Below are positions 4,723 to 63,897 of a DNA stretch of 64,000 nt, piece by piece. Both the position numbers and the translations under genes were made by a program. Origin of the DNA: a virus. Under the pieces are notes generated by a model. It was not told the origin of the DNA, searched no databases, and was given only the letters and a program-made list of their open reading frames with translations. Numbering within the stretch: the first letter of the stretch is position 1; each line of letters starts with the position of its first letter. The stretch lies in the IMG/VR virus record IMGVR_UViG_3300009285_002342, positions 51,126-115,125 of that record; one strand, given 5' to 3'.

Positions 4723-5793
4723 TTATCCCCTTCCCCTTTTCTTCGGTTCGGGTTTTACTTCGGTTTCCACGGGTTCTTCGGTCGTCGGAGCTTCTTCCTC
4801 GTCTGCAATAAGACAGACGGCGTGTCTGAAATTGTCCCCTTCGAAAAGCAAAGCACCGTCAGATACCGTCGCTTTATTCGCCTTCGGAATAATCGAAGAG
4901 AGATGTTCAGGGGAAGCGACAAATTCAATCTTTTTCCCTTTGTACTTTATCGGGACCGGTTCTATAGCTTTTCCTTTTATGTTTTCGCACTTCGCAATGA
5001 TTTCCCAGTTATCTACCGTAATCGTTACCCGCTTCAACTTATTCGATTCTTCGGCTAAAACCTGTACCCTGGACAAGGCTGCACAAAGTTCTACCGGAAA
5101 ATCAATCTTCTTTCCTTCTACGTTCAGATATTCGTCTACGTCTTCAAAGTTATCGTCTATCAGCGTATGCGCAAAGATAGCCCCGTCGTGATTTCGGTAG
5201 ACGGCTTGCGAATCCGTAATCAGAATTTCCTTTAGCCCGAAGGTAGAAAGAAAGTGTGCGATTTTTGAGGGAATAAGAATCGGTTTTTCTAAATCGATTT
5301 CTTCGGAAAGAATCCTTTCGGTAATACGGAAGTTATCGGAAGACAAAATCCTTTTTCCATCTACGGAAAGACATGTTAAAACGCCCATAGACGCTTGATC
5401 ACTCGCGGAGAAGGTACAAAAACCTAATGCTTCGTCGAAATCCTCCGGTAACGGTCGCCAATCCTCCTCTTCAAAATCGAAAGAAGGTATATCTTTCGCT
5501 TCTACCATCTTCAACCATACTTCCGTCTTTCCTGCCTTAACGTGTAACTCCTTTTCGTCCGCGTCAATTTCCATGTCTTCCTGGCTGAATTTGTTAAGCA
5601 ATCTCGTAAATTCATCCGCAGGAATCACCGCCTTTAGATCGGTATCCAAAGGTACGCAAATCGTGATTTCTTCGCCAGCTCCGATAAGTTTATCATTATC
5701 GAAGATTAGCATTCCTGAAAGTTCGGAAATTTTACCGTCGCTTAAAGCCGGTTTTACCTTTTCAATCGCACTTAAAAGTTCTTTTCGTTTCAT
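4723..5793 (-). CDS. dnaN: DNA polymerase sliding clamp (beta-clamp like)
   Basis: 356 residues, the expected length of a three-domain bacterial beta clamp. Features such as MKRKELLSAIEKVKPAL at the start, IPADEFTRLLNKF, SSDNFRITE and a clamp-like third domain support this. The C-terminus adds an acidic Pro/Glu tail and a basic KKRGRG end not usual in host clamps. It lies in the same operon as dnaE and would tether it to DNA. The sequence is divergent, so the call rests on pattern and context. Confidence 0.75.
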   Translation of the reverse strand: MKRKELLSAIEKVKPALSDGKISELSGMLIFDNDKLIGAGEEITICVPLDTDLKAVIPADEFTRLLNKFSQEDMEIDADEKELHVKAGKTEVWLKMVEAKDIPSFDFEEEDWRPLPEDFDEALGFCTFSASDQASMGVLTCLSVDGKRILSSDNFRITERILSEEIDLEKPILIPSKIAHFLSTFGLKEILITDSQAVYRNHDGAIFAHTLIDDNFEDVDEYLNVEGKKIDFPVELCAALSRVQVLAEESNKLKRVTITVDNWEIIAKCENIKGKAIEPVPIKYKGKKIEFVASPEHLSSIIPKANKATVSDGALLFEGDNFRHAVCLIADEEEAPTTEEPVETEVKPEPKKRGRG

Positions 5794-6518
5794 TCTTTCT
5801 CCTTCCGTTTAAGTTTTCTCTCCTTTAGTGGTCTTACTGGAATTATTCCGAATCCTAGATTTATTTGTTTTACTTTAGTCAAATCTTCATATCTCTTAGA
5901 TTCACCTTTAGGATAATGTAAAATCGGAAATCTAAGATGTTTCCTTGCTTCCTTTGCCCATCTTTTATCGCCATGAAAATAAATATATCTATGTTTAGGT
6001 TTTTGAGGAATTCTTTCTTCTATTTTTCCTTCGTATCTTTCACCGCGAATTTTTCCAGTACAAGATCTTCGATGAATTATTTTCCCTTCAGTAGTAAGAT
6101 ATTTCCCTTCGTTAAAAGATCCTTCTCCGGTATAAATCCAATTTAGAGCTTGATAAACATAACCTACATGCCCTTGATTTTGGTCTGCGTAACTCACAAG
6201 GATAAGAGGTTTAGGTAGCAATTTTATTGCATTAGCAGCAAAAAAGGTGGCAAGATTTTTTCTTTCTGAATAATCAATACAAAGCCGGTTAAATTCTAAA
6301 ACAGTATCTTTATAATCTTTTCCGCAAACAGAAGCCCCTAAATTCCTATTAGGGCAATATCCAAAAGTCGCTACACCTATCGTTCTATTTTTTTCTTTTT
6401 CGACCAACGCAAATCCATAAATATTCACTGTAGGCGCTCTACCTGCATAATGCTTTTTTAAAAGCCATTCTTTTGCTGCCAAACATGGAATCGAAACTAT
6501 CCGGAATTTATCTTTCAT
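5790..6518 (-). CDS. Mom-like DNA adenine modification protein (GNAT fold)
   Basis: 242 residues, close to phage Mu Mom. The segment LEFNRLCIDY and the strongly Mom-like SYADQNQGHVGYVYQALNW support the family. Mom converts adenine in DNA to an N6-acetamido-type base, blocking many restriction enzymes. The start is set at 6518 because AGGAAGG lies just upstream and conserved sequence begins at MKDKFRIVSIPC. A longer in-frame extension to 6701 runs through an intergenic repeat and is not credible. The gene is followed by the sliding clamp gene with an ATGA-type overlap. Confidence 0.88.
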   Translation of the reverse strand: MKDKFRIVSIPCLAAKEWLLKKHYAGRAPTVNIYGFALVEKEKNRTIGVATFGYCPNRNLGASVCGKDYKDTVLEFNRLCIDYSERKNLATFFAANAIKLLPKPLILVSYADQNQGHVGYVYQALNWIYTGEGSFNEGKYLTTEGKIIHRRSCTGKIRGERYEGKIEERIPQKPKHRYIYFHGDKRWAKEARKHLRFPILHYPKGESKRYEDLTKVKQINLGFGIIPVRPLKERKLKRKEKE

Positions 6519-6968: not shown

Positions 6969-7726
6969 ATTTTTGATCTTACCTTCCGAATAGCAATAGG
7001 ATTCATTTTTTTCTTAAACGCACGTAAAGACTCGTTCCCTAAATCCCCACAATCATTTACGTATTTTCCGTTTCCGTATTCTGCCACTTCCCGATAAAAC
7101 AGCAACCTCATATATTCAGCTAAGTACGGTTCCGCTAAACAAATTGAATAGCGGAAAATTAGATATTTGAAATTCTCATCCCAAACATTTAAGCCGACAA
7201 CTTTCTTCCTCTCCATGTCTATCAGAACTTTTCGATTTTTACCGTTTAGACAAAAATCTAACAATACTTCCGCATCTTCAATTTGTCTAAAACGCAAAGT
7301 CCATTCCGTTAGAAGATCGATAATCGGCGTTACAGGATGCCCCACTACGGCACGAAGATAAGTTAATTTCGGATTTCGGGCAACGAACTTCCGACTATTT
7401 TTACGAAACACTGCCCACTCCCCTCCTTTCATAGTGAGAAAATCGGCAGGATCGTAAATATACTCATAGTCAAGAAATTCGTTGCCCAACGGGCATTCCG
7501 GAAAGTCAGCCCAAAAAGGAGAGTCTTTCCAAAGTGGATTGCCCATTTTTCGGATAACCGGAAACAGTATTTGTTTTCCCTTATCTTCAACCCAAACTTC
7601 GCTTCCGGTATCGTAAACACGAAATTCGGCCCTATCGAAATATTCCTCCGAGCACCAGCAATTCGGCGTTATTCCGTTAAGGCGAAGAATTTCTAAATAT
7701 TCTTTCGGACTAATCAGTTTTTTCAT
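6965..7726 (-). CDS. DUF2156-like acyltransferase-fold protein
   Basis: 253 residues. The middle and C-terminal parts resemble the DUF2156 / LPG-synthase C-terminal fold, a GNAT relative: YDPADFLTMKGGEWAVFRKN, an internal VLIDMERKKVVGLNVW, and near the end NDCGDLGNESLRAFKKKMNP. Family members move acyl or aminoacyl groups. Being encoded beside a Mom-like acyltransferase and radical SAM enzymes, it could act in base or tRNA modification; that is inference. It starts next to the clamp-like gene and ends over the methyltransferase remnant start. Confidence 0.55.
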   Translation of the reverse strand: MKKLISPKEYLEILRLNGITPNCWCSEEYFDRAEFRVYDTGSEVWVEDKGKQILFPVIRKMGNPLWKDSPFWADFPECPLGNEFLDYEYIYDPADFLTMKGGEWAVFRKNSRKFVARNPKLTYLRAVVGHPVTPIIDLLTEWTLRFRQIEDAEVLLDFCLNGKNRKVLIDMERKKVVGLNVWDENFKYLIFRYSICLAEPYLAEYMRLLFYREVAEYGNGKYVNDCGDLGNESLRAFKKKMNPIAIRKVRSKI

Positions 7727-8568: not shown

Positions 8569-9974
8569 AAACAATCCTCCAAAATTCTTATTCTAAAATC
8601 GTCTTCCTTTTCATATTTCCAGATTATCCTTCCTTCGGAATCATTCCCCACCGGTACTATCCCCCTTCCCCAATCCAGCGAATAAGAAGGATTTCCGCTA
8701 AGGTTCCACAATCCAAAAAATTCCTGCTTAAGATTTTCAGAAAGGAAACCCCCGTTTTCTTCTACATACTTTTCGTATTCATCCCAAGTTACCGCCCGTC
8801 CTTTCTGGTTTTTTATGTACCAGATCGCAGACACAGAACTTCCGCGATTAAATTTTGAATCCGGAAAGAAATCCCCCACTTCGCAACATATCTCGTTTCC
8901 GTTTTCCGCTACATTCCCTAAGTCGAAAGTAGAACAACGGAATCCCTTTTCTCTAAAAAGGTCCATAAACTTTCCTAGAAGAAGGGAACCAAGGGCTTGA
9001 CTATCGGAAGTAAGCAGATACATCCGGTTAAAATCATATCCTAAATTCGTAAAGTTATTACGGATACCTGGATTGTTGGCGGAATAGGAATATGTATCGA
9101 AGGTAATGTGTCGAACGCCGGCCGCATAAACTTCTTCAATATATTTTTCGACGAATTCCTTTTCGTCATTTATGAAAACCATCCACGGCTCTATCCTAGC
9201 CACAACCCTTATCCCAGCAGAAGATAAAATGCGCATCGCCTCTAACCGCTTTTTGTAAGAAGGCGCTCCCGGCTCTATCGCTTTTAAGATCCGGTTGTCT
9301 GCGGAAATCAAAGTAACGTGTACTGCAGCTTTAGAAGGATTATCCGCTAAAGCGGAAAGGTAAGGTTCTTCGGCAGGTAAATCCGATTTAGTATTTATCA
9401 TTATCGGATAATTTCTGTCTTTTAGATGATTCAAAAACGCTAACGCTATTCCGTTCTTCCTTTCTGCGTAAATAAAATCTTCGAATCGAATTCCTAACCG
9501 AATCGGAATACGGTTTTTTATCGCTCTTTGAATATCGGAAGCATTTAACGGAAGTCCCTTAGCGACAACCTCAAAATGCCTATCCAGTTCCGCACGAAAA
9601 TAATCAGGCGGGCAAGATCGTATTCCCATTTCCTCAGTTCTATCCCAAAAGGAAGTGTACAATGTCGCTTTTAGTATATCCGCGAAGCAATATTGGCAAC
9701 GGAAAGGGCACGCCTTTGCGTCATAGCAATCCGCATTGAGGGGCATCGGGCAAGCGGCTGCCCGAAGACTAACCTCAATAAAATGTTTAATCCTTTCCGT
9801 GTTAAATATCTTCTCTTTGTTTTGCCACTTTTGCCTTATCAGATTAAATTCATGATAATTTGTTTTTCTGCCTTTAATCTTAACTTCGGATTTCAATTTG
9901 TCTTTAACGGAAGTTAGAATCTTCTGTCTGGGAATCAGTTTAGAAACTAAAGATCGCAATTCGTAATAATTCAT
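8565..9974 (-). CDS. Radical SAM enzyme, spore-photoproduct-lyase-like
   Basis: 469 residues. The radical SAM cluster motif is CPFRCQYC (CxxxCxxC, residues ~88-95). It is followed by TIM-barrel features such as MINTKSDLP, HVTLISAD and RIEPWM, and a later CC pair. The arrangement matches the SPL-like / Rv2578c-type radical SAM proteins, which include DNA photoproduct repair enzymes and uncharacterised members. It is the last of a coupled set (radical SAM, methyltransferase-fold, aldo/keto reductase, radical SAM). Repair of UV damage and nucleotide hypermodification are both possible. Confidence 0.8.
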   Translation of the reverse strand: MNYYELRSLVSKLIPRQKILTSVKDKLKSEVKIKGRKTNYHEFNLIRQKWQNKEKIFNTERIKHFIEVSLRAAACPMPLNADCYDAKACPFRCQYCFADILKATLYTSFWDRTEEMGIRSCPPDYFRAELDRHFEVVAKGLPLNASDIQRAIKNRIPIRLGIRFEDFIYAERKNGIALAFLNHLKDRNYPIMINTKSDLPAEEPYLSALADNPSKAAVHVTLISADNRILKAIEPGAPSYKKRLEAMRILSSAGIRVVARIEPWMVFINDEKEFVEKYIEEVYAAGVRHITFDTYSYSANNPGIRNNFTNLGYDFNRMYLLTSDSQALGSLLLGKFMDLFREKGFRCSTFDLGNVAENGNEICCEVGDFFPDSKFNRGSSVSAIWYIKNQKGRAVTWDEYEKYVEENGGFLSENLKQEFFGLWNLSGNPSYSLDWGRGIVPVGNDSEGRIIWKYEKEDDFRIRILEDCL

Positions 9975-10954
9975 AATGGATAGTTACTTTCTATTTCGGC
10001 AATTTCGTCATCGGCAAGTTCTATTTTTACGGATTTAAGATTGTCTTTTAGATGCTCTAAATTATTTGTAGCTGGAATTGGAAGGACACCTTTCTTGCTT
10101 AAAAGCCAAGATAATGCAATTTGTGGCGATTTGCCTCCCTTTGATTTTGCTATTTTGTCTAAAATTGGTTTGTGTAATTTCTTATATGATTGCCCCAAAG
10201 GGCTATAGGCAATAACCAATATCCCCCTTTCTTGACAATACGGCAATAAAAATTCTTCTATACGCCTATCAATAAGCGAATAACTGACTTGAACGGAACG
10301 TATAACGTCACCAGAAAAATCAGAAAGAAATCTTTGCATTGATTCAATCATATCTACCGAACAATTACTAAGACCTATAGAAAGAATCTTGCCCTTTTTA
10401 CGCAATCCAACTAAAGTTTTACCTAAAACCTCGTCCGAATACTTATCGTTAGGAAAGTGAATTTGCAAATGGCTAACCCTTCCTAACTTTTCTAAAGATC
10501 TTGAAACGGTAGAAGTAAGTGCAGAAGATGACATATGATCCCTTCGAACTTTTGTAGCTACGGGAATTGAAATGTTTTTTAGTGCTTTCCCCAATTCTGT
10601 TTCTACCTTACCGTATCCGTATCCTTCTGCGGTATCTATCAATACAGCGCCGAAATTTACCGCTTCTTCTATAAGACTATAATCATATTTCCAACCATAT
10701 GTCCCGAAACCAATACCGCATTTACATTCGATTTCCATTGGTTTAAAAGAAATATCCTGGTGGTCTAAAAGTTTTTCTAAACGCCTAACCGAATATTGAA
10801 GTAATTCTTTTCTTTTAATCAAAAGCGCAGAAGATAAAGACATATAGCGTAGATTAAGTCCCCACATCGATCCGTGCAAAACATCTGAAGCCCCTGCGCT
10901 TAATTTCTTATCAAAAGAAAAGTTTTTTATTTCGTCAAGTATTTTTAACCACAC
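9971..10954 (-). CDS. Aldo/keto reductase with N-terminal extension
   Basis: 327 residues from a GTG at 10954. From about residue 80 it is a canonical NAD(P)H aldo/keto reductase: GFGTYGW, DTAEGYGYGKVETELGKAL with the catalytic Asp and Tyr, ATKVRRDH with the catalytic Lys, LQIHFPND with the His, and YSPLGQ. The first ~80 residues (SAGASDVLHGSMWGLNLRYM) do not belong to the family and may be a partner-binding domain. The gene overlaps both neighbours. A lone AKR is rare in phages; its substrate may be a product of the adjacent radical SAM enzymes. Confidence 0.85.
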   Translation of the reverse strand: MWLKILDEIKNFSFDKKLSAGASDVLHGSMWGLNLRYMSLSSALLIKRKELLQYSVRRLEKLLDHQDISFKPMEIECKCGIGFGTYGWKYDYSLIEEAVNFGAVLIDTAEGYGYGKVETELGKALKNISIPVATKVRRDHMSSSALTSTVSRSLEKLGRVSHLQIHFPNDKYSDEVLGKTLVGLRKKGKILSIGLSNCSVDMIESMQRFLSDFSGDVIRSVQVSYSLIDRRIEEFLLPYCQERGILVIAYSPLGQSYKKLHKPILDKIAKSKGGKSPQIALSWLLSKKGVLPIPATNNLEHLKDNLKSVKIELADDEIAEIESNYPL

Positions 10955-11664
10955 AATCCAAAACCTTTCAATTTTGCTTTCTTTGGTTTGAATTCTTCAT
11001 GCCCCCTAGAAACAAACAAATCGGAAGGTTGAATATGCGTAATCTTTCCTTTTTCATTTCCATACAAAACCATAGCGGCATTCATAAAAGCGGAAACAGC
11101 TATGAGATTTTTCCCAACAATCGGTTTTGTTTCCTTAGCCAACAATTCGTAGTATTCCTCTTCGGTTTTAACGCCATAATGACGGAGATTCCCGAACTTA
11201 AAACCAAAACAAGTGCTATCGGCTATTATAACCCATTTTGCTGTTTTCGCTACTCTTGACAATACTTCGCTATGTCCAGGCAACTTACGCAAAGTAAAGG
11301 CGTCAAAATCCAAAATTAGAATGTCCGATTCCGGCGGCGTCCAAGAATAAACATCGTTATTCAATACAGTGTGGTTTGGAAAATTACTTTTCAAAAAACC
11401 ACAACAATTTTCGTCCTTATCGTTAATAATCAATTCACAATCAGTCCATCTTGTTAACGAAACAGCGCACCAAAAACCAGATCTAGCTATAGCGTCTACG
11501 ATTTTTGGTTTCTTTCCACAATTTATTACAGACAAAACTGCATCAAGCGTTCTACAAGTTTCCGCTACATCACGGTACGGAACAACTTGGCTAGGTGTCC
11601 TTATCTTTCTTTCTGTCCCTGATTCGGGAATGTCAAGTTTTATTTTTCCTACGGAATAAATCAT
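10945..11664 (-). CDS. Class I SAM-methyltransferase-fold protein, degenerate
   Basis: 239 residues. A Rossmann-type methyltransferase layout is visible: VDAIARSGFW in place of motif I, CELIINDKDE for motif II, LNNDVYSW for motif III and DILILDFDAF for motif IV. Motif I lacks the usual Gly-rich loop, so activity is uncertain. The acidic motif IV (DFDAF) is not that of a standard DNA adenine or cytosine enzyme. It is embedded between a radical SAM gene and the AKR gene with overlapping ends, implying a shared pathway. Confidence 0.5.
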   Translation of the reverse strand: MIYSVGKIKLDIPESGTERKIRTPSQVVPYRDVAETCRTLDAVLSVINCGKKPKIVDAIARSGFWCAVSLTRWTDCELIINDKDENCCGFLKSNFPNHTVLNNDVYSWTPPESDILILDFDAFTLRKLPGHSEVLSRVAKTAKWVIIADSTCFGFKFGNLRHYGVKTEEEYYELLAKETKPIVGKNLIAVSAFMNAAMVLYGNEKGKITHIQPSDLFVSRGHEEFKPKKAKLKGFGLCG

Positions 11665-12731
11665 AGCCCACTATCCTTCATTGTGTAATGATTTTTTGAT
11701 TTACCGCACATAATCAATTCTGCGTTTTTTAAATCTTCTTTTGTCCCAATTCCTTCCCAGGTAGTTTCTAAAATAGTTTTTCTATCTAAACCTTCTTGCA
11801 GCAATTTTCTCCAATTGTGAGTGTTAAATTTGAAAGCATTTTTTATGTCTATTCCGCAACAAGTGTTAAGATTAGATACCCAATTTTTCGGAAGGTTGAC
11901 AAAATCCGGACATCCAAGATTTATATTTTCCTTGTCTGCAATTTCGCACAATTCCTTCTGAACAGGTTTCCATTTTTTATCCTGATTAGCGTCCCATATT
12001 TTTTCAATATCTAAACCTATATCCAAAAGACGTTTTGCAGTATAAGGATTCAAATGTAAATTGTAGATATTGTAAGACATAAAACCATAAGACTTGATAA
12101 GTTTAAGAATATCTTTAAATTGCGAAACAGTATGATACCCAGGAATAAAAGGTTCCCCCCTTATTCCAACATTTAACCCCAATCTCAACCATTCTTTTCC
12201 TATCATTAAACGATCTTTAATCGGAGAGGTTCTTTTCCTTTCGAATATTTCCCAATCAGATTCACAGCCAGCAGTTATTTCGATTAAAAAACAGAAGCAA
12301 TCTTTTTTTGTCTTAACAAATAAACCCGTATCCCTTAAAGCATTAGAAATGTATCTTGAACAAATTACGAAAGGCCAAGATAAATCTATCAGAACCTTAA
12401 CGCTGTTTCTAGTTACTTTGTGCTGATTTTCTATCGATTGATAAGGATCAGCTTTCCTTCCTAAAAATATTGCCTTTTTCTTTTTTAACGCAATAGCTAA
12501 GGGAGATTTTGGATCTTTTGATCTTTGAGAATCTGTTAATTTTTTACAGATTTGTTCTGGATTTGCTATCCGTTGTTCTTCGCCCCAAATCTTGTTAAGG
12601 TTTCTGCCTAAGCAGTGAAAACAATCTGCTTCACAAGCCCAATAAGATTCAAGAGTCAACGGAAGTGGACAATTTAGATGGGTTTTTCTAATACAGAAAG
12701 GATTTTTATATTCTTTCAAGTTATTCACCAA
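11661..12731 (-). CDS. Second radical SAM enzyme, SPL-type
   Basis: 356 residues if started at the TTG at 12731. The cluster motif CEADCFHC (CxxxCxxC) lies near residue 33, so the start must be close to this point. Barrel elements include IFLGRKADPYQ, LIEITAGCES and GIRGEPFIPGYH. C-terminal cysteines (TCCG, MCGKS) might hold an extra cluster. No ATG or convincing ribosome site is near; GTG at 12728 is an alternative. A strong hairpin sits just upstream. It is distantly similar in type to the radical SAM at 8565-9974 and is the first gene of the cassette. Confidence 0.75.
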   Translation of the reverse strand: MVNNLKEYKNPFCIRKTHLNCPLPLTLESYWACEADCFHCLGRNLNKIWGEEQRIANPEQICKKLTDSQRSKDPKSPLAIALKKKKAIFLGRKADPYQSIENQHKVTRNSVKVLIDLSWPFVICSRYISNALRDTGLFVKTKKDCFCFLIEITAGCESDWEIFERKRTSPIKDRLMIGKEWLRLGLNVGIRGEPFIPGYHTVSQFKDILKLIKSYGFMSYNIYNLHLNPYTAKRLLDIGLDIEKIWDANQDKKWKPVQKELCEIADKENINLGCPDFVNLPKNWVSNLNTCCGIDIKNAFKFNTHNWRKLLQEGLDRKTILETTWEGIGTKEDLKNAELIMCGKSKNHYTMKDSGL

Positions 12732-59519: not shown

Positions 59520-60671
59520 ATGAGAAAGACATTCAAATACAAGGTAAAGATCAATGAAAAAACAGAGGCAAATTGTCTTGATTGGTTAGATAAATGCCGT
59601 ACTCTTTACAATCTTTGTCTTGAACAACGTATAATTTATTGGAATCAATGGAAGAAAAATATTTCTTATTACGAGCAAAAAAGAGAACTCCCGTTTTTTA
59701 AAAAGGAATTTCCAGAATATAAAAATATAAGTGCGCAAACTCTTCAAAGCGTTATAGAAAGATTAGATAAAACGTATCAAAATTTTTTTCGCAAAATCAA
59801 AAAAAGCGAAAAAACAGGTTTCCCAAGATTTAAAGGTAAAGATAGATATGATTCTTTTATATTACAACAAACTGGTTGGAAATTAGAAGGTAGATATCTT
59901 TATATTAAAAATGTTGGAAGGTTTAAACTTTTTCTTTCTAGACCGATTGAGGGAAAAATAAAGACCGTTACAATAAAGAAAACAAATACAAATCAATGGT
60001 TTGTTAGTTTTTCTTGCGATGAAGTTGTTCCAAATCATTTTTGGAAACCTAAAAAAGAAGATGTGGGAATTGATGTAGGCTTAAAAGTCTTTTTAGCTGA
60101 TTCCGAAGGAAATAAAGTTAAAAATCCTAGATTTTTTAAAAAATCAGAAAGGGAATTAAGAGTAAAACAAAGATCATTAAGCAGGAAAAAGAAAGGTTCT
60201 ATTCGAAGGCGAAAAAACAGGTTATCAGTAGCAAAAACTCATGAAAAAATATCTAATCAAAGAATCGATTTTGTCAATAAATTAGTCTTTGATTATGTCT
60301 CAAGGTATAAAAATATTTTTATAGAAGATCTAAATATCAAGAAGATGGTTTCCGAAAAACAATTCAGTAAGTCAATTTCTGATGTTTCTTGGGGTTTATT
60401 TTTTAATAAGTTACAAGTCAAAGCGGCAGAAGCTGGACGTGTAGTTATTAAAGTTAATCCTAAGAATACAAGTCAAAGATGTTCAAGTTGCGACTGTATC
60501 GTACCGAAAGATTTATCCGTAAGGATACATAAATGTGATTGCGGTTTGGTTTTGGACAGAGACGTTAATGCCGCAATCAATATATTGAAGTTAGGTCGGG
60601 CAGACCTATCGGGCGTTAAGTCGGCGGGTACGTCGATTAGCCCGAAGATATCCAGATTCACTAGAGGATAA
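59520..60671 (+). CDS. tnpB: TnpB RNA-guided nuclease (IS605-type OrfB)
   Basis: 383 residues, the only clear protein gene on the + strand. Full RuvC-like set: VGIDVGLKVF (Asp), FIEDLNIKKM (Glu), and LDRDVNAAINIL (Asp), with a zinc finger CSSCDCIV...CDCGLV between. The N-terminal helical region and FPRFKGKDRYDSF are also typical. No TnpA is adjacent. TnpB proteins cut DNA using an RNA made from the 3' end of their element; that end probably lies at 60560-60700. All catalytic residues appear intact. Confidence 0.92.
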   Translation: MRKTFKYKVKINEKTEANCLDWLDKCRTLYNLCLEQRIIYWNQWKKNISYYEQKRELPFFKKEFPEYKNISAQTLQSVIERLDKTYQNFFRKIKKSEKTGFPRFKGKDRYDSFILQQTGWKLEGRYLYIKNVGRFKLFLSRPIEGKIKTVTIKKTNTNQWFVSFSCDEVVPNHFWKPKKEDVGIDVGLKVFLADSEGNKVKNPRFFKKSERELRVKQRSLSRKKKGSIRRRKNRLSVAKTHEKISNQRIDFVNKLVFDYVSRYKNIFIEDLNIKKMVSEKQFSKSISDVSWGLFFNKLQVKAAEAGRVVIKVNPKNTSQRCSSCDCIVPKDLSVRIHKCDCGLVLDRDVNAAINILKLGRADLSGVKSAGTSISPKISRFTRG

Positions 60672-60752: not shown

Positions 60753-61055
60753 TCAACCCAAAGCCTTCTCCAACTGCTCGATTTCAGATTCCAAACTCCT
60801 CCGTTTCTCATCCGGTGTAGCGATAGCCTCTCTCCGTGCCTTCGCGGTTTTCAGCCTTCGCTGCAATTCGACTCGGTTCCGTTTCGTGATTTCCGCCGAA
60901 ACCAACGACAGCTTATCGATCACCCAATCGGGCGTTTGGATACTGATCGCCTGGCATTCCGCATCAATAGCTTTAAGGTTAATCTTCGCCAGAATCAAAT
61001 CCTCCATAATGTCCACGTCTTCCGTTAAAAGTGATTTCAACTGTTTTGCGTTCAT
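60753..61055 (-). CDS. Coiled-coil hypothetical protein
   Basis: 100 residues, almost wholly helical with two coiled-coil stretches (LVSAEITKRNRVELQRRLKT; KRRSLESEIEQLEKAL). GC-richer than most of the window. Followed by a terminator. Unknown function. Confidence 0.5.
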   Translation of the reverse strand: MNAKQLKSLLTEDVDIMEDLILAKINLKAIDAECQAISIQTPDWVIDKLSLVSAEITKRNRVELQRRLKTAKARREAIATPDEKRRSLESEIEQLEKALG

Positions 61056-61348
61056 CTTTTTTCCTCCTTTTTGTCAATACGTCTTAGAATGTTTATTTTA
61101 TCGTCAGTTTCCATTGGCAATCTTTTTGTACTTAACCACGTAAGCAAGAGGATTACCAATTGCCCAACCTCCTCTCGGTTAAGGTGAAAATCCCGGCCGA
61201 CGAAAAGAAAGCTGCTACCTGGATTTTCTAAAGAATCTTTGTCTTCGCCTATAGCGGAAGATTCCTGAACAAGTTTTTCTATATTTCCGTTCGGATAAGC
61301 CGGATGCTCAATTACGATAAAACCTCTATCTGTTTTTCTCGCTTCCAT
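61052..61348 (-). CDS. Conserved small phage protein
   Basis: 98 residues. VIEHPAYPNG, LVQESSAIGEDKDSLENPGSSFLFVGRDFHLNREEVGQLV is a clear signature of a widespread small phage protein family of unknown function. Confidence 0.65.
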   Translation of the reverse strand: MEARKTDRGFIVIEHPAYPNGNIEKLVQESSAIGEDKDSLENPGSSFLFVGRDFHLNREEVGQLVILLLTWLSTKRLPMETDDKINILRRIDKKEEKR

Positions 61349-61456: not shown

Positions 61457-62995
61457 TTATTCCCGCTTCCGTAGTATCTCCTCTATGGTTAGAAGTTTCG
61501 TAGCCATAATTTCATCAAGCAGTGTGAAGCGAGAAGTTCTCATCGTCTTAACTAAATTCGGCAGCGCATAATAATCCATCCGCGAAACATCTCTCTTTTC
61601 GAACGGAATATTTGCCTTAATGCACCTTTCAGAAAATACATCCGTTTCACCGGGAACCCAATAATGATAAACCGTAGGTTCTACGCCGAATTTTGCGGAA
61701 TATTTTCGGTAGACATCGGAAAAAAACGGGAAATCATTTTCACCGCCATCCGAACATACCGCAATTCCGTTTACGATGATTCCCTTTTCGGCAATCAGGT
61801 CTAAACCGCAACCGATATTCGTTCCGCCGGAAGCGTTAATTCTTCGCGTTTCATTTTTGATTTCCTCTAACGTCTTCCCGGTAACGTCATACGCCAGAGG
61901 TTCGTTATTAAAGAATACAAGATAAATTTTACCTTTAACTTGTTGTGCAATCAGGGCTGCGATATTTTTGGCTAATTCTACCGACCGTTCCATAGATCCG
62001 GATCGATCCCCTAGCACCAACCAATCCCCTTCGATACCGCCTAACTGTTCTAATTTTTCTTCCTGTACCCTTTGCATTTTTTGCGCAACTTTAACGCTTA
62101 CCTTTTCCGCAGCCTTTCCGGTCTTTAAGGTAGAAACCTTTTTATCAGCGGCCACCTTCCGAAGCGCAGCATCATAACCGGATTTCAAAATCGGATTATC
62201 CATTACCCCCATTCTCTCGAAAGCAGCGGTATTCGTTAAAACTTCATTTCCGCTCATTCTTTCGAGTAGCGCAAGAATAATATCCGGTTTATCTTTTATT
62301 CCGCCTACGGCACCTACAGCGATAAGAAACGGAATTTTATGATTCAGGATCGTTCCGGCAGCTTCCGTAGGATTCATATTTCGCAAATTTTTAATCGCTT
62401 CGAAAACAGATCCGTTCGGATATTCGTTTTCGAAAAGGATTTTTTGTGCGAAAGGCGCAGGTCTAACGTGAAACTTAGCATAAAGTTCCTTTAATGCTTT
62501 TCGATGTTGTACTGCCGTCTTATTCCACCATCTCCTGTTTTCTTCCATTGCCCGAAGGTATCTTTCGCCGGCCGAATACAGTAAAGCGCGGGAAGCCTTA
62601 GCGGGATGAGAAACGGAAACGTTAACCTTCGCTTTTTTCTTAACGGTTTTTCCTTTAACGGAAGTCTTTTGGAAAATTTCTAATTCGCCTTTGGCTAAAC
62701 CTTGCGAAAATTTAAGAGCCTTCGTAAAGGAGATAGGGTCTAAAGAAATGATATGCGCGATTGCGTTTTCGTGTAACTCCAGATCCCATTCCCCTCTTAA
62801 CGCTAAGACAGGAAATGCAATTTTCGAATCGCGAATTTCACCCTTCTTTGCATTCCAGGCGATAAGATGAGCGAAAATTTCCGGCTCTTCCATTGCTGCT
62901 CTTAAACCGGTTTTCGCATAGACGGAAAGATCGCCGTGCCCGATGGAGATTAAAGATTGGATAAGCTGTTGCTTGGAGATAGTCGATTTTTCCAT
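61457..62995 (-). CDS. Ro60-like protein (TROVE helical domain + vWA)
   Basis: 512 residues. The first ~320 residues are helical, with TROVE-like elements (RALKELYAKFHVRPA; NLRNMNPTEAAGTILNHKIPFLIAVGAVGG). The C-terminal ~180 residues are a von Willebrand A domain with an intact MIDAS: DRSGS (~residue 330), the Thr of GGTNIG, and Asp of CSDGG. Ro60 forms a ring that binds misfolded RNA and Y RNAs. This gene directly follows a cluster of tRNAs and Y-like RNAs, probably in one transcript, so an RNA chaperone or decay particle is likely. Confidence 0.78.
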   Translation of the reverse strand: MEKSTISKQQLIQSLISIGHGDLSVYAKTGLRAAMEEPEIFAHLIAWNAKKGEIRDSKIAFPVLALRGEWDLELHENAIAHIISLDPISFTKALKFSQGLAKGELEIFQKTSVKGKTVKKKAKVNVSVSHPAKASRALLYSAGERYLRAMEENRRWWNKTAVQHRKALKELYAKFHVRPAPFAQKILFENEYPNGSVFEAIKNLRNMNPTEAAGTILNHKIPFLIAVGAVGGIKDKPDIILALLERMSGNEVLTNTAAFERMGVMDNPILKSGYDAALRKVAADKKVSTLKTGKAAEKVSVKVAQKMQRVQEEKLEQLGGIEGDWLVLGDRSGSMERSVELAKNIAALIAQQVKGKIYLVFFNNEPLAYDVTGKTLEEIKNETRRINASGGTNIGCGLDLIAEKGIIVNGIAVCSDGGENDFPFFSDVYRKYSAKFGVEPTVYHYWVPGETDVFSERCIKANIPFEKRDVSRMDYYALPNLVKTMRTSRFTLLDEIMATKLLTIEEILRKRE

Positions 62996-63026
62996 TTTAA
63001 TCTGTTCTCCTTTCTAAAAGTTTAAA

Positions 63027-63103
63027 TGGCAGGCCATGAAGGATTCGAACCTCCAACCTACGGAATCAAAGTCCGATGCTCTACCGGATTGAGCTAATGG
63101 CCT
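63027..63103 (-). tRNA. tRNA-Gln (UUG)
   Basis: 77 bases with encoded CCA. Acceptor AGGCCAT/ATGGCCT; D arm GCTC...GAGC; anticodon loop CTTTGAT gives UUG; T arm GGAGG-TTCGAAT-CCTTC. Normal cloverleaf. Confidence 0.95.
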
Positions 63104-63109
63104 AAAAAG

Positions 63110-63195
63110 TGGTGGGCGGGGAAGGAGTTGAACCTTCGTTGTTTCCCCGTCACGGATTTACAGTCCGCTGCAATCGCCACTATGCGCACCCGCCC
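63110..63195 (-). tRNA. tRNA-Tyr (GUA)
   Basis: 86 bases with encoded CCA and a long variable arm. Acceptor GGGCGGG/CCCGCCC; anticodon loop CTGTAAA gives GUA; T arm GAAGG-TTCAACT-CCTTC. Normal class II tRNA. Confidence 0.95.
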
Positions 63196-63204
63196 GTTAA
63201 AAAC

Positions 63205-63282
63205 AAAAAATCGGGATAAGTCACCTGAGCATTAATTGTATTTCCAATATACATGTAGGCTCAAGCAGTATCCCGATTTTTT
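63205..63282 (-). ncRNA. Minimal Y-like RNA (no tRNA body)
   Basis: 78 bases. A 14-bp closing stem (AAAAAAUCGGGAUA / UAUCCCGAUUUUUU) is followed by an internal loop (CUG / UGACU), a 7-bp inner stem (CUUGAGC/GCUCAGG) and an apical hairpin UGUAU...AUACA. The 3' side ends in U6, so it may also terminate transcription. The internal-loop 3' strand UGACU resembles the conserved Ro-binding strand of Y RNAs and recurs in the three RNAs upstream. Confidence 0.65.
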
Positions 63283-63293
63283 AAAAGTTTTTT

Positions 63294-63432
63294 GGGGATG
63301 AGTCAAAAGCGCTAACTTTTTCTGTGCTCTAACCGGGCTGAGCTACCGCTGTCATTTTTTATTGGGACAGCGGGAAGGATTTGAACCTTCGACCCCAGGC
63401 TCCTATAGCATGTATGCGCTTTAGGTATCCCC
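63294..63432 (-). ncRNA. Permuted tRNA-like Y RNA (YrlA-like)
   Basis: 139 bases. Closing stem GGGGAU/AUCCCC, internal loop ACCU/UGACUC, inner stem AAAGCGC/GCGCUUU. Between the inner strands a tRNA body is circularly permuted: T arm GAAGG-TTCAAAT-CCTTC comes first, then acceptor CCGCUGUC and CCA, a short AU linker (AUAAAAAAU), then acceptor GACAGCGG, UA and D arm GCUC...GAGC. The Y-like stem takes the place of the anticodon arm. This matches the layout expected of bacterial YrlA tRNA mimics. Confidence 0.75.
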
Positions 63433-63443
63433 AAAATTGGGTT

Positions 63444-63544
63444 GGGCCGGGTAGGATTGATTACCTGCACGATAGCCTTTATTTGAGGCCGATGCTGCAA
63501 CGCTCTGCGTCCGCTGAATCCTCGTCTTGACTACGCCCCGGCCC
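63444..63544 (-). ncRNA. Structured RNA of unclear type, GGGCCGGG-closed
   Basis: 101 bases closed by a perfect 8-bp stem GGGCCGGG/CCCGGCCC. Inner pairs AGGAUU/AAUCCU, an ACGC-AGA-GCGU hairpin and a GCCU/AGGC hairpin can form. It does not give a normal tRNA cloverleaf. On the + strand the 3' side reads CUUGACUACG before the stem, close to a Ro-binding strand, so the coding strand is uncertain. It may be another Y-like RNA. Confidence 0.45.
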
Positions 63545-63554
63545 ATAAACGATT

Positions 63555-63699
63555 ACGGGAATAAGTTAATCAGGCTTAATGTTTTACATAATACTGATTT
63601 CAAGTCAGTCGCCTTTAGCCACTAGGCAATATTCCCCGAAGGAAATAGAAGGAATCGAACCTTCGATTATTTGCATGTATGCCCGAAAGGTATTCCCGT
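63555..63699 (-). ncRNA. Permuted tRNA-Ser-like Y RNA with UUCG-capped acceptor
   Basis: 145 bases. Closing stem ACGGGAAUA/UAUUCCCGU, inner stem UCGGGC/GCCUGA, 3' loop UUAACU. The tRNA body is permuted in the variable arm (stem AUAAU/AUUAU): T arm GAAGG-TTCGATT-CCTTC, acceptor UAUUUCC, UUCG tetraloop, acceptor GGGAAUA, D arm GCCU...AGGC, then a full anticodon arm ACUGA-CUUGAAA-UCAGU (anticodon UGA, Ser). With the acceptor sealed by the C(UUCG)G loop it cannot be charged, so it is a tRNA mimic. Confidence 0.78.
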
Positions 63700-63708
63700 A
63701 AAATTCGG

Positions 63709-63835
63709 TATCGGCAGTGAGTCGGAAGCGGTTATTGGATTTGCTTGCTGGATTTGAACCAGCGACACACGGTTTATGAGACCGATGCTCAACCAACTGA
63801 GCTAAAGCATGTATCCGCTACCATTACCGCCGATA
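63709..63835 (-). ncRNA. Y-like stem carrying a tRNA-Met-like (CAU) body
   Basis: 127 bases. Closing stem UAUCGGCGGU/ACUGCCGAUA, internal loop AAU/GACUC, inner stem GGUAGCGG/CCGCUUCC (one mismatch), then AUACAUGC. The tRNA body has normal order: D arm GCTC-AGTTGGTT-GAGC, anticodon CAU (63776-63778), T arm GCTGG-TTCAAAT-CCAGC and encoded CCA. Only five acceptor pairs form; positions 1-72 and 2-71 mismatch. It could be processed to an odd tRNA-Met or stay a Y-type RNA. Confidence 0.65.
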
Positions 63836-63868
63836 TTTTTTAAAAGAGCGTTTGATTTTTCTTGACTG

Positions 63869-63897
63869 ATTATATCCAAAAAATTCAGATTTTTAAA
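63869..63897 (-). promoter_or_regulatory. Promoter of the structured RNA / Ro60 operon
   Basis: TTTAAA, 17 bases, TATAAT on the minus strand, about 34 bases before the first Y-like RNA. It has the same boxes and spacing as the promoter at 13524. To the right (63898-64000) I see only AT-rich and unassigned sequence. Confidence 0.7.

Follow-up and report, generated by a model that had tools for sequence, protein, structure and literature searches.

What does a phage locus encode in which a Ro60-like gene lies behind a series of RNAs carrying various pieces of tRNA, and what could these pieces be for? The question arises from the IMG/VR virus record IMGVR_UViG_3300009285_002342, a 115,125-bp record with terminase and portal genes of phage type, of which bases 51126-115125 (64,000 nucleotides, hereafter the window) were analysed. 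The best explanation of the sequence data is that the locus encodes a viral Ro ribonucleoprotein. Comparative analysis shows a Ro60/Rsr-fold gene preceded by an array of Y RNAs, in which a constant, putative docking end is combined with a variable display end. The components are the following (window positions):

63709..63835, minus strand: R1, a Y RNA whose insert is an entire tRNA-Met(CAU) in normal order (63736-63811), its acceptor stem shortened (descriptor score 37.7; fold z -3.7)
63553..63701, minus strand: R2, a Y RNA with a complete circularly permuted tRNA-Ser(UGA)-like module (descriptor score 36.7; permuted-tRNA search; minimum free energy fold)
63290..63436, minus strand: R3, a Y RNA with a YrlA-type permuted module (descriptor score 38.0; permuted-tRNA search)
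63204..63283, minus strand: R4, a mini Y RNA without a tRNA module, with a long stem1 followed by U6 (descriptor score 43.7; fold z -6.3)
61457..62995, minus strand: Ro60/Rsr-fold protein of 512 amino acids (AlphaFold, Foldseek, profiles, residues of the metal ion-dependent adhesion site, MIDAS)

The 512-residue protein comprises a helical HEAT-type ring in its N part, followed by a vWA domain with the DxSxS...T...D pattern of the MIDAS. Its AlphaFold model (mean predicted local distance difference test score 81.8) was compared with the PDB using Foldseek, and the 13 best matches were all Ro60, Rsr or TROVE structures, aligned over their full length (513-567 columns; TM scores 0.53-0.62; E 3.7e-10 to 4e-7). 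The MIDAS residues D330, S332, S334, T392 and D416 are invariant in 11 sequences, and profiles built from four and 11 homologues match PDB TROVE chains (E 1.4e-5) and human Ro60 (E 1.1e-4). The Pfam TROVE family (PF05731) matched neither the window protein nor any of the 11 homologues, and single-sequence searches of viral contigs, genome contigs and the PDB with the window protein returned no match. NCBIfam and Pfam provided no useful name for the protein, for which Pfam gave a weak vWA match only and PHROGs a weak match to the RNA-binding family phrog_850. A first-pass annotation of the sequence had described a phage-encoded Ro60-like gene of the TROVE type; the family profiles and the modelled fold bear out the former, while the TROVE label holds for profile and structure matches but not for Pfam. 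By its modelled fold the protein is a Ro60 homologue outside the Pfam TROVE threshold, and its binding of Y RNAs is predicted from the co-location of the genes.

R1 to R4 share a scaffold of stem1, a 6-nt linker, stem2, NUACAUG, the insert, stem2', an 8-nt linker with RACU and stem1'. When this scaffold is written as a descriptor (stem1; ~6 nt; stem2; NUACA(U/A); insert; stem2'; ~8 nt with RACU; stem1'), the four RNAs, which the first-pass annotation had located with all coordinates right to within 4 bases, score 36.7-43.7 and are the only matches of at least 26 on either strand of the 115 kb record. Mononucleotide-shuffled control sequence (4.58 Mb) contained 21 matches of at least 26 and none of at least 34. 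The unconstrained folds are more stable than those of dinucleotide shuffles (z -3.7 for R1, -3.1 for R2, -3.8 for R3 and -6.3 for R4), and the Rfam YrlA consensus fits the same geometry (descriptor score 35). Alignments of the modules with MAFFT and RNAalifold did not recover stem1 and stem2. Since the modules were selected with a descriptor that demands pairing, covariation in these stems is not independent evidence, and the claim for the Y stems therefore rests on the shuffle controls and on recurrence. By analogy with known Y RNAs, the constant end would dock each RNA on the Ro ring. The absence of TROVE from the single-sequence Pfam search and the YrlA match below the Rfam threshold (see below) would suit a reading of the four elements as chance folds, or as ordinary tRNAs with flanking hairpins, that form no Y RNA family. 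This reading is, however, in effect refuted by the shuffle controls, the recurrence of the scaffold upstream of Ro homologues in tens of loci and the full-length Ro60 fold.

The four RNAs differ in what they display. The tRNA-Met(CAU) of R1 is found by both ARAGORN and Rfam (tRNA, 52.8 bits). The unconstrained minimum free energy fold of R2 contains the two Y stems, a T-arm, a 7-bp acceptor closed by UUCG, a D-arm, an anticodon arm (UGA) and a small variable arm, so that the cloverleaf is circularly permuted between the variable arm and the T-arm. In the R3 module a T-arm is followed by a 7-bp acceptor, then by CCCA with a linker, and finally by a D-arm; an anticodon arm is missing. R3 scores 36.5 bits (E 4e-6) with the Rfam YrlA model (RF02553), short of its gathering score of 69, and R1, R2 and R4 were not listed as YrlA in this search. 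The permuted tRNA-like domain of the YrlA type (T-arm, acceptor, D-arm) is present in R2 and R3, R1 having an unpermuted tRNA and R4 none. The Y RNA family with different tRNA attachments described by the first-pass annotation is thus found as one whole-tRNA, two permuted and one bare form; the YrlA resemblance that it suggested extends to R3 and to the shared geometry, short of the Rfam gathering score. From their sequences, R3 is close to classical YrlA; the unusual ones are R1, with its whole tRNA, and R2, whose permuted tRNA includes the anticodon and variable arms.

Relatives of the protein were gathered by profiles built stepwise (A1, A2, A3). The homologues from viruses come from 65 IMG/VR loci and the 595-kb phage genome LR756511, and these 66 loci (800 kb) contain 131 Y modules at a score of at least 27, 125 of which lie upstream of Ro on the Ro strand, four downstream and two on the opposite strand. 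The number of modules depends on the descriptor. Frequently, the Ro gene sits within long phage tRNA arrays. An automatic and approximate sorting of 116 distinct virus modules yielded 29 with a permuted tRNA, 23 with a whole tRNA, 24 mini forms and 11 with the Y hairpin in inverted order, the remainder being of other kinds. The same protein family is also encoded in 56 genome-assembly loci, mostly of cyanobacteria but also of Chloroflexi, Acidobacteria, Planctomycetes and Myxococcota; two of these loci (L080 and L081) are probably phage contigs, as the L080 module equals one in the virus locus L028. Scanning of 41 genome-assembly loci gave 79 Y modules, again including whole and permuted tRNAs.

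Permuted tRNAs were identified by an explicit arm-by-arm search, ARAGORN on doubled inserts detecting few of them, and were found in 8 of 27 inserts as against 10 of 5400 shuffles. All of the 25 cleanest permuted modules have a near-perfect 7-bp acceptor and 24 have a D-arm. In ten, NCCA directly follows the acceptor (chance 1/64; p 2e-12), in six a stable tetraloop replaces it, and nine retain an anticodon arm. In alignments of the permuted type, both partners vary in each of the seven acceptor pairs and in several pairs of the T-arm and D-arm; in those of the whole-tRNA type such changes occur in anticodon-arm and T-arm pairs. A further form was observed when the Y hairpin was cut out of the sequence: a tRNA spanning the junction was then predicted by ARAGORN at 12 of 200 Y-motif sites, compared to 7 of 859 control-motif sites (p 2e-5), with nine convincing cases, such as tRNA-Arg(UCG) in L001 and L010. 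The Y modules, as classified from sequence, may bear a whole tRNA or a permuted one, may be mini forms, or may be Y hairpins inserted in tRNAs. The first-pass annotation had named two outcomes that would refute its proposal, the lack of a TROVE match by profile search and the lack of covariation of the proposed stems in related phages, and the check came out in its favour: family profiles and fold match Ro60/TROVE, and covariation is found in the tRNA arms of related modules, the Y stems having recurrence against shuffles and no independent covariation.

The alignments show that the tRNA shape is under selection. This bears on the notion that the Y stems do all of the work, by gating the Ro ring, with the tRNA pieces being recombination debris that stabilises the RNA end. 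Many arrays do contain mini Y RNAs without tRNA (R4 and the 24 mini forms among the 116 distinct modules), and the arrays are surrounded by phage tRNA genes, from which such pieces could readily come, but the compensatory changes in the T-arm, acceptor and D-arm pairs, and the retention of all three in 24 of the 25 permuted modules, render this notion very improbable. It is also unlikely, if less so, that some of the chimeras mature into chargeable tRNAs that are stored or protected by Ro. The acceptor end is free where the Y hairpin sits inside a tRNA, and excision of the hairpin restores a tRNA more often than at control sites. In permuted modules with ACCA, RNase P and 3' processing could open the module, and NCCA is correctly placed in 10 of the 25. 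Many permuted modules, however, have a closed tetraloop in place of CCA or lack an anticodon arm, the whole-tRNA type, including R1, has an incomplete acceptor stem fused to the Y stem, and the anticodons seem unsystematic. Since CCA or the anticodon arm is often lost in the permuted modules, charging and decoding look dispensable and the tRNA shape does not. The T-arm, acceptor stem and D-arm are conserved, and the tRNA core would therefore be the recognised part.

The display ends of the cyanobacterial relatives extend to ribosomal RNA. Four cyanobacterial Y RNAs adjoining a Ro-like gene (L084 7355-7555, L085 7355, L087 8558-8779 and L135 9346) contain TAGTACGAGAGGA and the GTPase-associated centre of 23S rRNA in one insert. 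TAGTACGAGAGGA directly follows the NUACAU motif and has exactly the sequence of the sarcin-ricin loop in E. coli 23S rRNA (at 2653); the GTPase-associated centre lies further on. This 12-mer occurs nowhere else in the 1.55 Mb of fetched loci, where 0.19 occurrences would be expected. The large-subunit rRNA model matches the L084 insert at 52.7 bits, above threshold, and blastn of the cyanobacterial rRNA-bearing inserts against 23S rRNA gave E values of 1e-14 to 4e-5. Two further long Y inserts, L113 2210-2411 (Okeania; E 8e-5) and L001 4666-4984 (huge phage; E 0.009), resemble 23S positions 1919-1941 (the helix 69-71 region), each of these matches being weak when taken alone (best shuffle E 9e-5).

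The display ends are proposed to serve as bait for enzymes by which translation RNAs are attacked or processed, a reading to which a probability of roughly 0.45 is assigned. The phage Y RNAs would dock on the Ro ring by the constant end and present tRNA-shaped ends, imitating the translation RNAs on which ribonucleases, toxins and RNA-processing enzymes act. The Ro particle could then occupy such enzymes, or sense their cleavage, so that the real tRNAs would be shielded during infection. Different Y RNAs of one array would display different baits, and the phages may keep swapping the displayed tRNA through recombination with the neighbouring tRNA arrays. Ribotoxins classically target tRNAs and the sarcin-ricin loop. 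It has also been suggested that YrlA competitively inhibits an anticodon nuclease (PMC7790460). Four observations weigh against this proposal. No recognisable anticodon arm is present in 16 of the 25 permuted modules, which can thus not be anticodon-nuclease bait as such; Salmonella YrlA escaped cleavage by the SOS-induced anticodon nuclease (PMC7790460); bacterial Y RNA is known as an adaptor for PNPase, not as bait (PMC8394870); and firm rRNA mimics are found in the cyanobacterial relatives only, the phages having just one stretch, in LR756511, with a weak resemblance to helix 70/71 (E 0.009).

The adaptor role leads to the main competing explanation, in which, as in the Deinococcus radiodurans Rsr/Y RNA/PNPase complex (RYPER), the tRNA-shaped end links the Ro ring with a host RNase (PNPase, for example) or with enzymes of tRNA modification or processing, and the phage particle redirects RNA decay or quality control during infection. 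YrlA binds Rsr through its basal stem and PNPase through its tRNA-like domain, which DusA and TruB modify (reviewed in PMC8394870); R3 has the same arm order as YrlA (T-arm, acceptor, D-arm); and an adaptor has been proposed for Listeria phage CKA15 (PMC12282133). A PNPase-type RNase_PH domain is absent from 21 phage records, and a host enzyme would therefore be needed. Tethering of host PNPase through the window Y RNAs is possible by analogy with these systems. The adaptor explanation leaves unaccounted for the several different tRNAs per array, the bare Y RNAs and the cyanobacterial mimics of the sarcin-ricin loop and GTPase-associated centre, and is considered a serious but doubtful candidate. 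Because the displayed tRNAs vary and ribosomal centres occur on the cyanobacterial scaffold, a bait or sensor fits better than one adaptor for one enzyme. Recruitment and blocking of tRNA-processing or decay enzymes, the two roles that the first-pass annotation put forward for tRNA mimicry, cannot be separated by sequence, and the rRNA mimics in the relatives lean towards bait.

The bait proposal may be extended, tentatively, to the Ro particles of this family in general. These could act as racks on which Y arrays present vulnerable parts of the translation apparatus, namely tRNAs in three topologies, the sarcin-ricin loop with the GTPase-associated centre and perhaps helix 69-71, absorbing or reporting attack by ribotoxins or RNA-targeting defence, with phages employing the particles as counter-defence. 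Cyanobacteria and other bacteria might use such a rack together with ubiquitin-like, KptA and ATPase partners. The Ro/Y family makes the purpose of bacterial Ro60 and Y RNAs testable, because nature has systematically varied the display end on one conserved docking end beside one protein, and the set of modules separates the features of the mimic that are retained (T-arm, acceptor stem, D-arm) from those that are not. It also represents a large collection of circularly permuted tRNA modules from viral and bacterial sources, and the Y RNAs with ribosomal functional centres suggest that Ro particles are connected with attack on the translation apparatus or with its care.

Ro60/Rsr proteins with Y RNAs, YrlA as a permuted tRNA mimic and Ro proteins in phages, including jumbo phages (PMC7824862), are already known. 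The window locus resembles the Salmonella Rsr-YrlA ribonucleoprotein (rsr-yrlBA-rtcBA; RF02553) in docking geometry, in the permuted arm order of R3 and in the Rsr-fold gene beside the RNA. It differs in that its RNAs fall under the YrlA threshold and in that the whole-tRNA R1, the anticodon-bearing permuted R2 and the Y-inside-tRNA forms are absent from the YrlA descriptions compared. Coupling to RNA repair, as in the Salmonella operon, was considered and is not supported, with RtcB found in none of the 21 phage records, including that of the window (the records may be fragments), and ATP-grasp RNA ligase matches in four. RYPER likewise combines a Ro ring with a Y RNA, and the structure of D. 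radiodurans Rsr (2nvo) matches over the full length (E 3.7e-7), but identity is ~13%, the window has several tRNA-bearing Y RNAs and no phage PNPase is encoded. Human Ro60 shares the full-length fold (9nen, E 5e-9; 1yvp, E 7e-9), and the vertebrate Y RNAs have, in general plan, a two-stem docking end; they are without a tRNA module, and the sequence identity of Ro60 to the window protein is very low. The Ro60 of Thermus phage phiLo (PDB 9l5y), with a solved structure, also matches (E 8.6e-9) and belongs to a different sequence family.

Phage Ro proteins of the DUF2828 type (phrog_850; Listeria P100 and CKA15, Mycobacterium L-cluster phages, KVP40, SUSP1) are Ro60-like vWA proteins that are often encoded near tRNA genes. 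A search with the P100 protein retrieved 671 phage records, none of which was matched by tblastn with the window protein or its huge-phage homologue, and in seven DUF2828-type loci the Y scaffold of R1 to R4 was not found near Ro and no Rfam YrlA match was obtained. SUSP1 contains one 29-point scaffold match, near chance level and on the strand opposite the tRNAs. For CKA15, an Rsr, whose protein was detected in virions, has been proposed together with abundant upstream non-coding RNAs that are suspected to be Y RNAs (PMC12282133); the presence of YrlA in mycobacteriophages is attributed to Chen et al. 2014 as cited by PMC12282133. The novelty that the first-pass annotation saw in several Y RNAs beside a phage Ro gene is thus lessened by the CKA15 proposal and lies more in the kinds of tRNA attachment. 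As far as checked, the new elements are Y arrays with whole tRNAs, anticodon-complete permuted tRNAs, Y hairpins inside tRNAs and mimics of rRNA centres, all tied to one divergent Ro family common to phages and bacteria, the novelty of the whole-tRNA and Y-inside-tRNA forms being judged from sources other than the main YrlA papers (Chen et al. 2014, Sim et al. 2020).

On the minus strand, and leading away from the end of the record, the window locus comprises a promoter-like site, the four Y RNAs with one other structured RNA, tRNA-Tyr, tRNA-Gln and the 512-codon gene. The remaining features are:

63869..63897, minus strand: promoter-like site TTTAAA-17-TATAAT, upstream of the RNA array (10/12 consensus match)
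63443..63545, minus strand: structured RNA between R2 and R3, closed by GGGCCGGG/CCCGGCCC, not a Y scaffold (fold z -2.75)
63110..63195, minus strand: ordinary tRNA-Tyr(GTA) (ARAGORN and Rfam)
63027..63103, minus strand: ordinary tRNA-Gln(TTG) (ARAGORN and Rfam)
61052..61348, minus strand: open reading frame of 98 amino acids directly downstream of the Ro gene, no assigned function

The RNAs and the Ro gene may share one transcript, as the first-pass annotation proposed. The promoter named in the first-pass annotation is present at 63897-63869, but 5.4 such sites are expected by chance in shuffles of the region and the site is weak by itself. The extra structured RNA and the two true tRNAs that it had listed were all recovered. 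The structured RNA has no relatives in the fetched loci, and its comparison with Rfam and by blastn gave no support for an rRNA mimic. A gene of the IS605 OrfB/TnpB type (window 59520-60671) lies on the opposite strand, between the terminase and Ro regions.

Several further genes were observed in the neighbourhood of the homologues. A small open reading frame ending in LIVRPEAVYG or similar is found upstream in many of the bacterial loci (many of L084-L135) and in distant phages, where the ends conform to (I/V/L)RPxA(V/I)(F/Y)G (L001 6146-6382, L013 5680-5946, L014 5087-5311 and L015 5684-5893, all upstream of Ro). Its product appears ubiquitin-like by eye, with no Pfam or NCBIfam model matching, and L001 encodes ThiF/E1 and JAB proteins close to the Ro locus. 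An RNA 2'-phosphotransferase KptA (L087 8707-9378; E 6e-52) and an AAA ATPase (9143-10585) adjoin a cyanobacterial Ro locus. Two families without a Pfam name, with the motifs GPLRRxLRxKVGxPW and NFxGWGxF, were judged by eye to be common to cyanobacterial and phage Ro neighbourhoods (L087 4931-5713 and L004 12144-12962; L087 12136-13029 and L001 10458-11351). In some phages an HNH-type open reading frame, recognised by eye, lies between the Y array and the Ro gene (L010 ~5400-5972; L012 ~5425-5965).

The phage locus L004 contains a repeated RNA-like element (5510-5600, 5690-5790, 5810-5895 and 8680-8770), consisting of AAGACGGGATTAAATG followed by a hairpin, which is interspersed among the Y RNAs and also occurs downstream of Ro. 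It further encodes a second vWA protein (10895-11923) and, ~3.4 kb upstream of the Ro gene, a protein with a major vault protein shoulder (E 4e-28) and a vault repeat (6-2567). A vault-type particle as a general feature was rejected, as a vault-like protein is encoded in only one of 21 records. The long stem of R4 (window 63204-63283) followed by U6 could itself terminate transcription, and the last Y RNA of the L001 array (7192-7272) is likewise a long stem followed by U6 that may double as a terminator.

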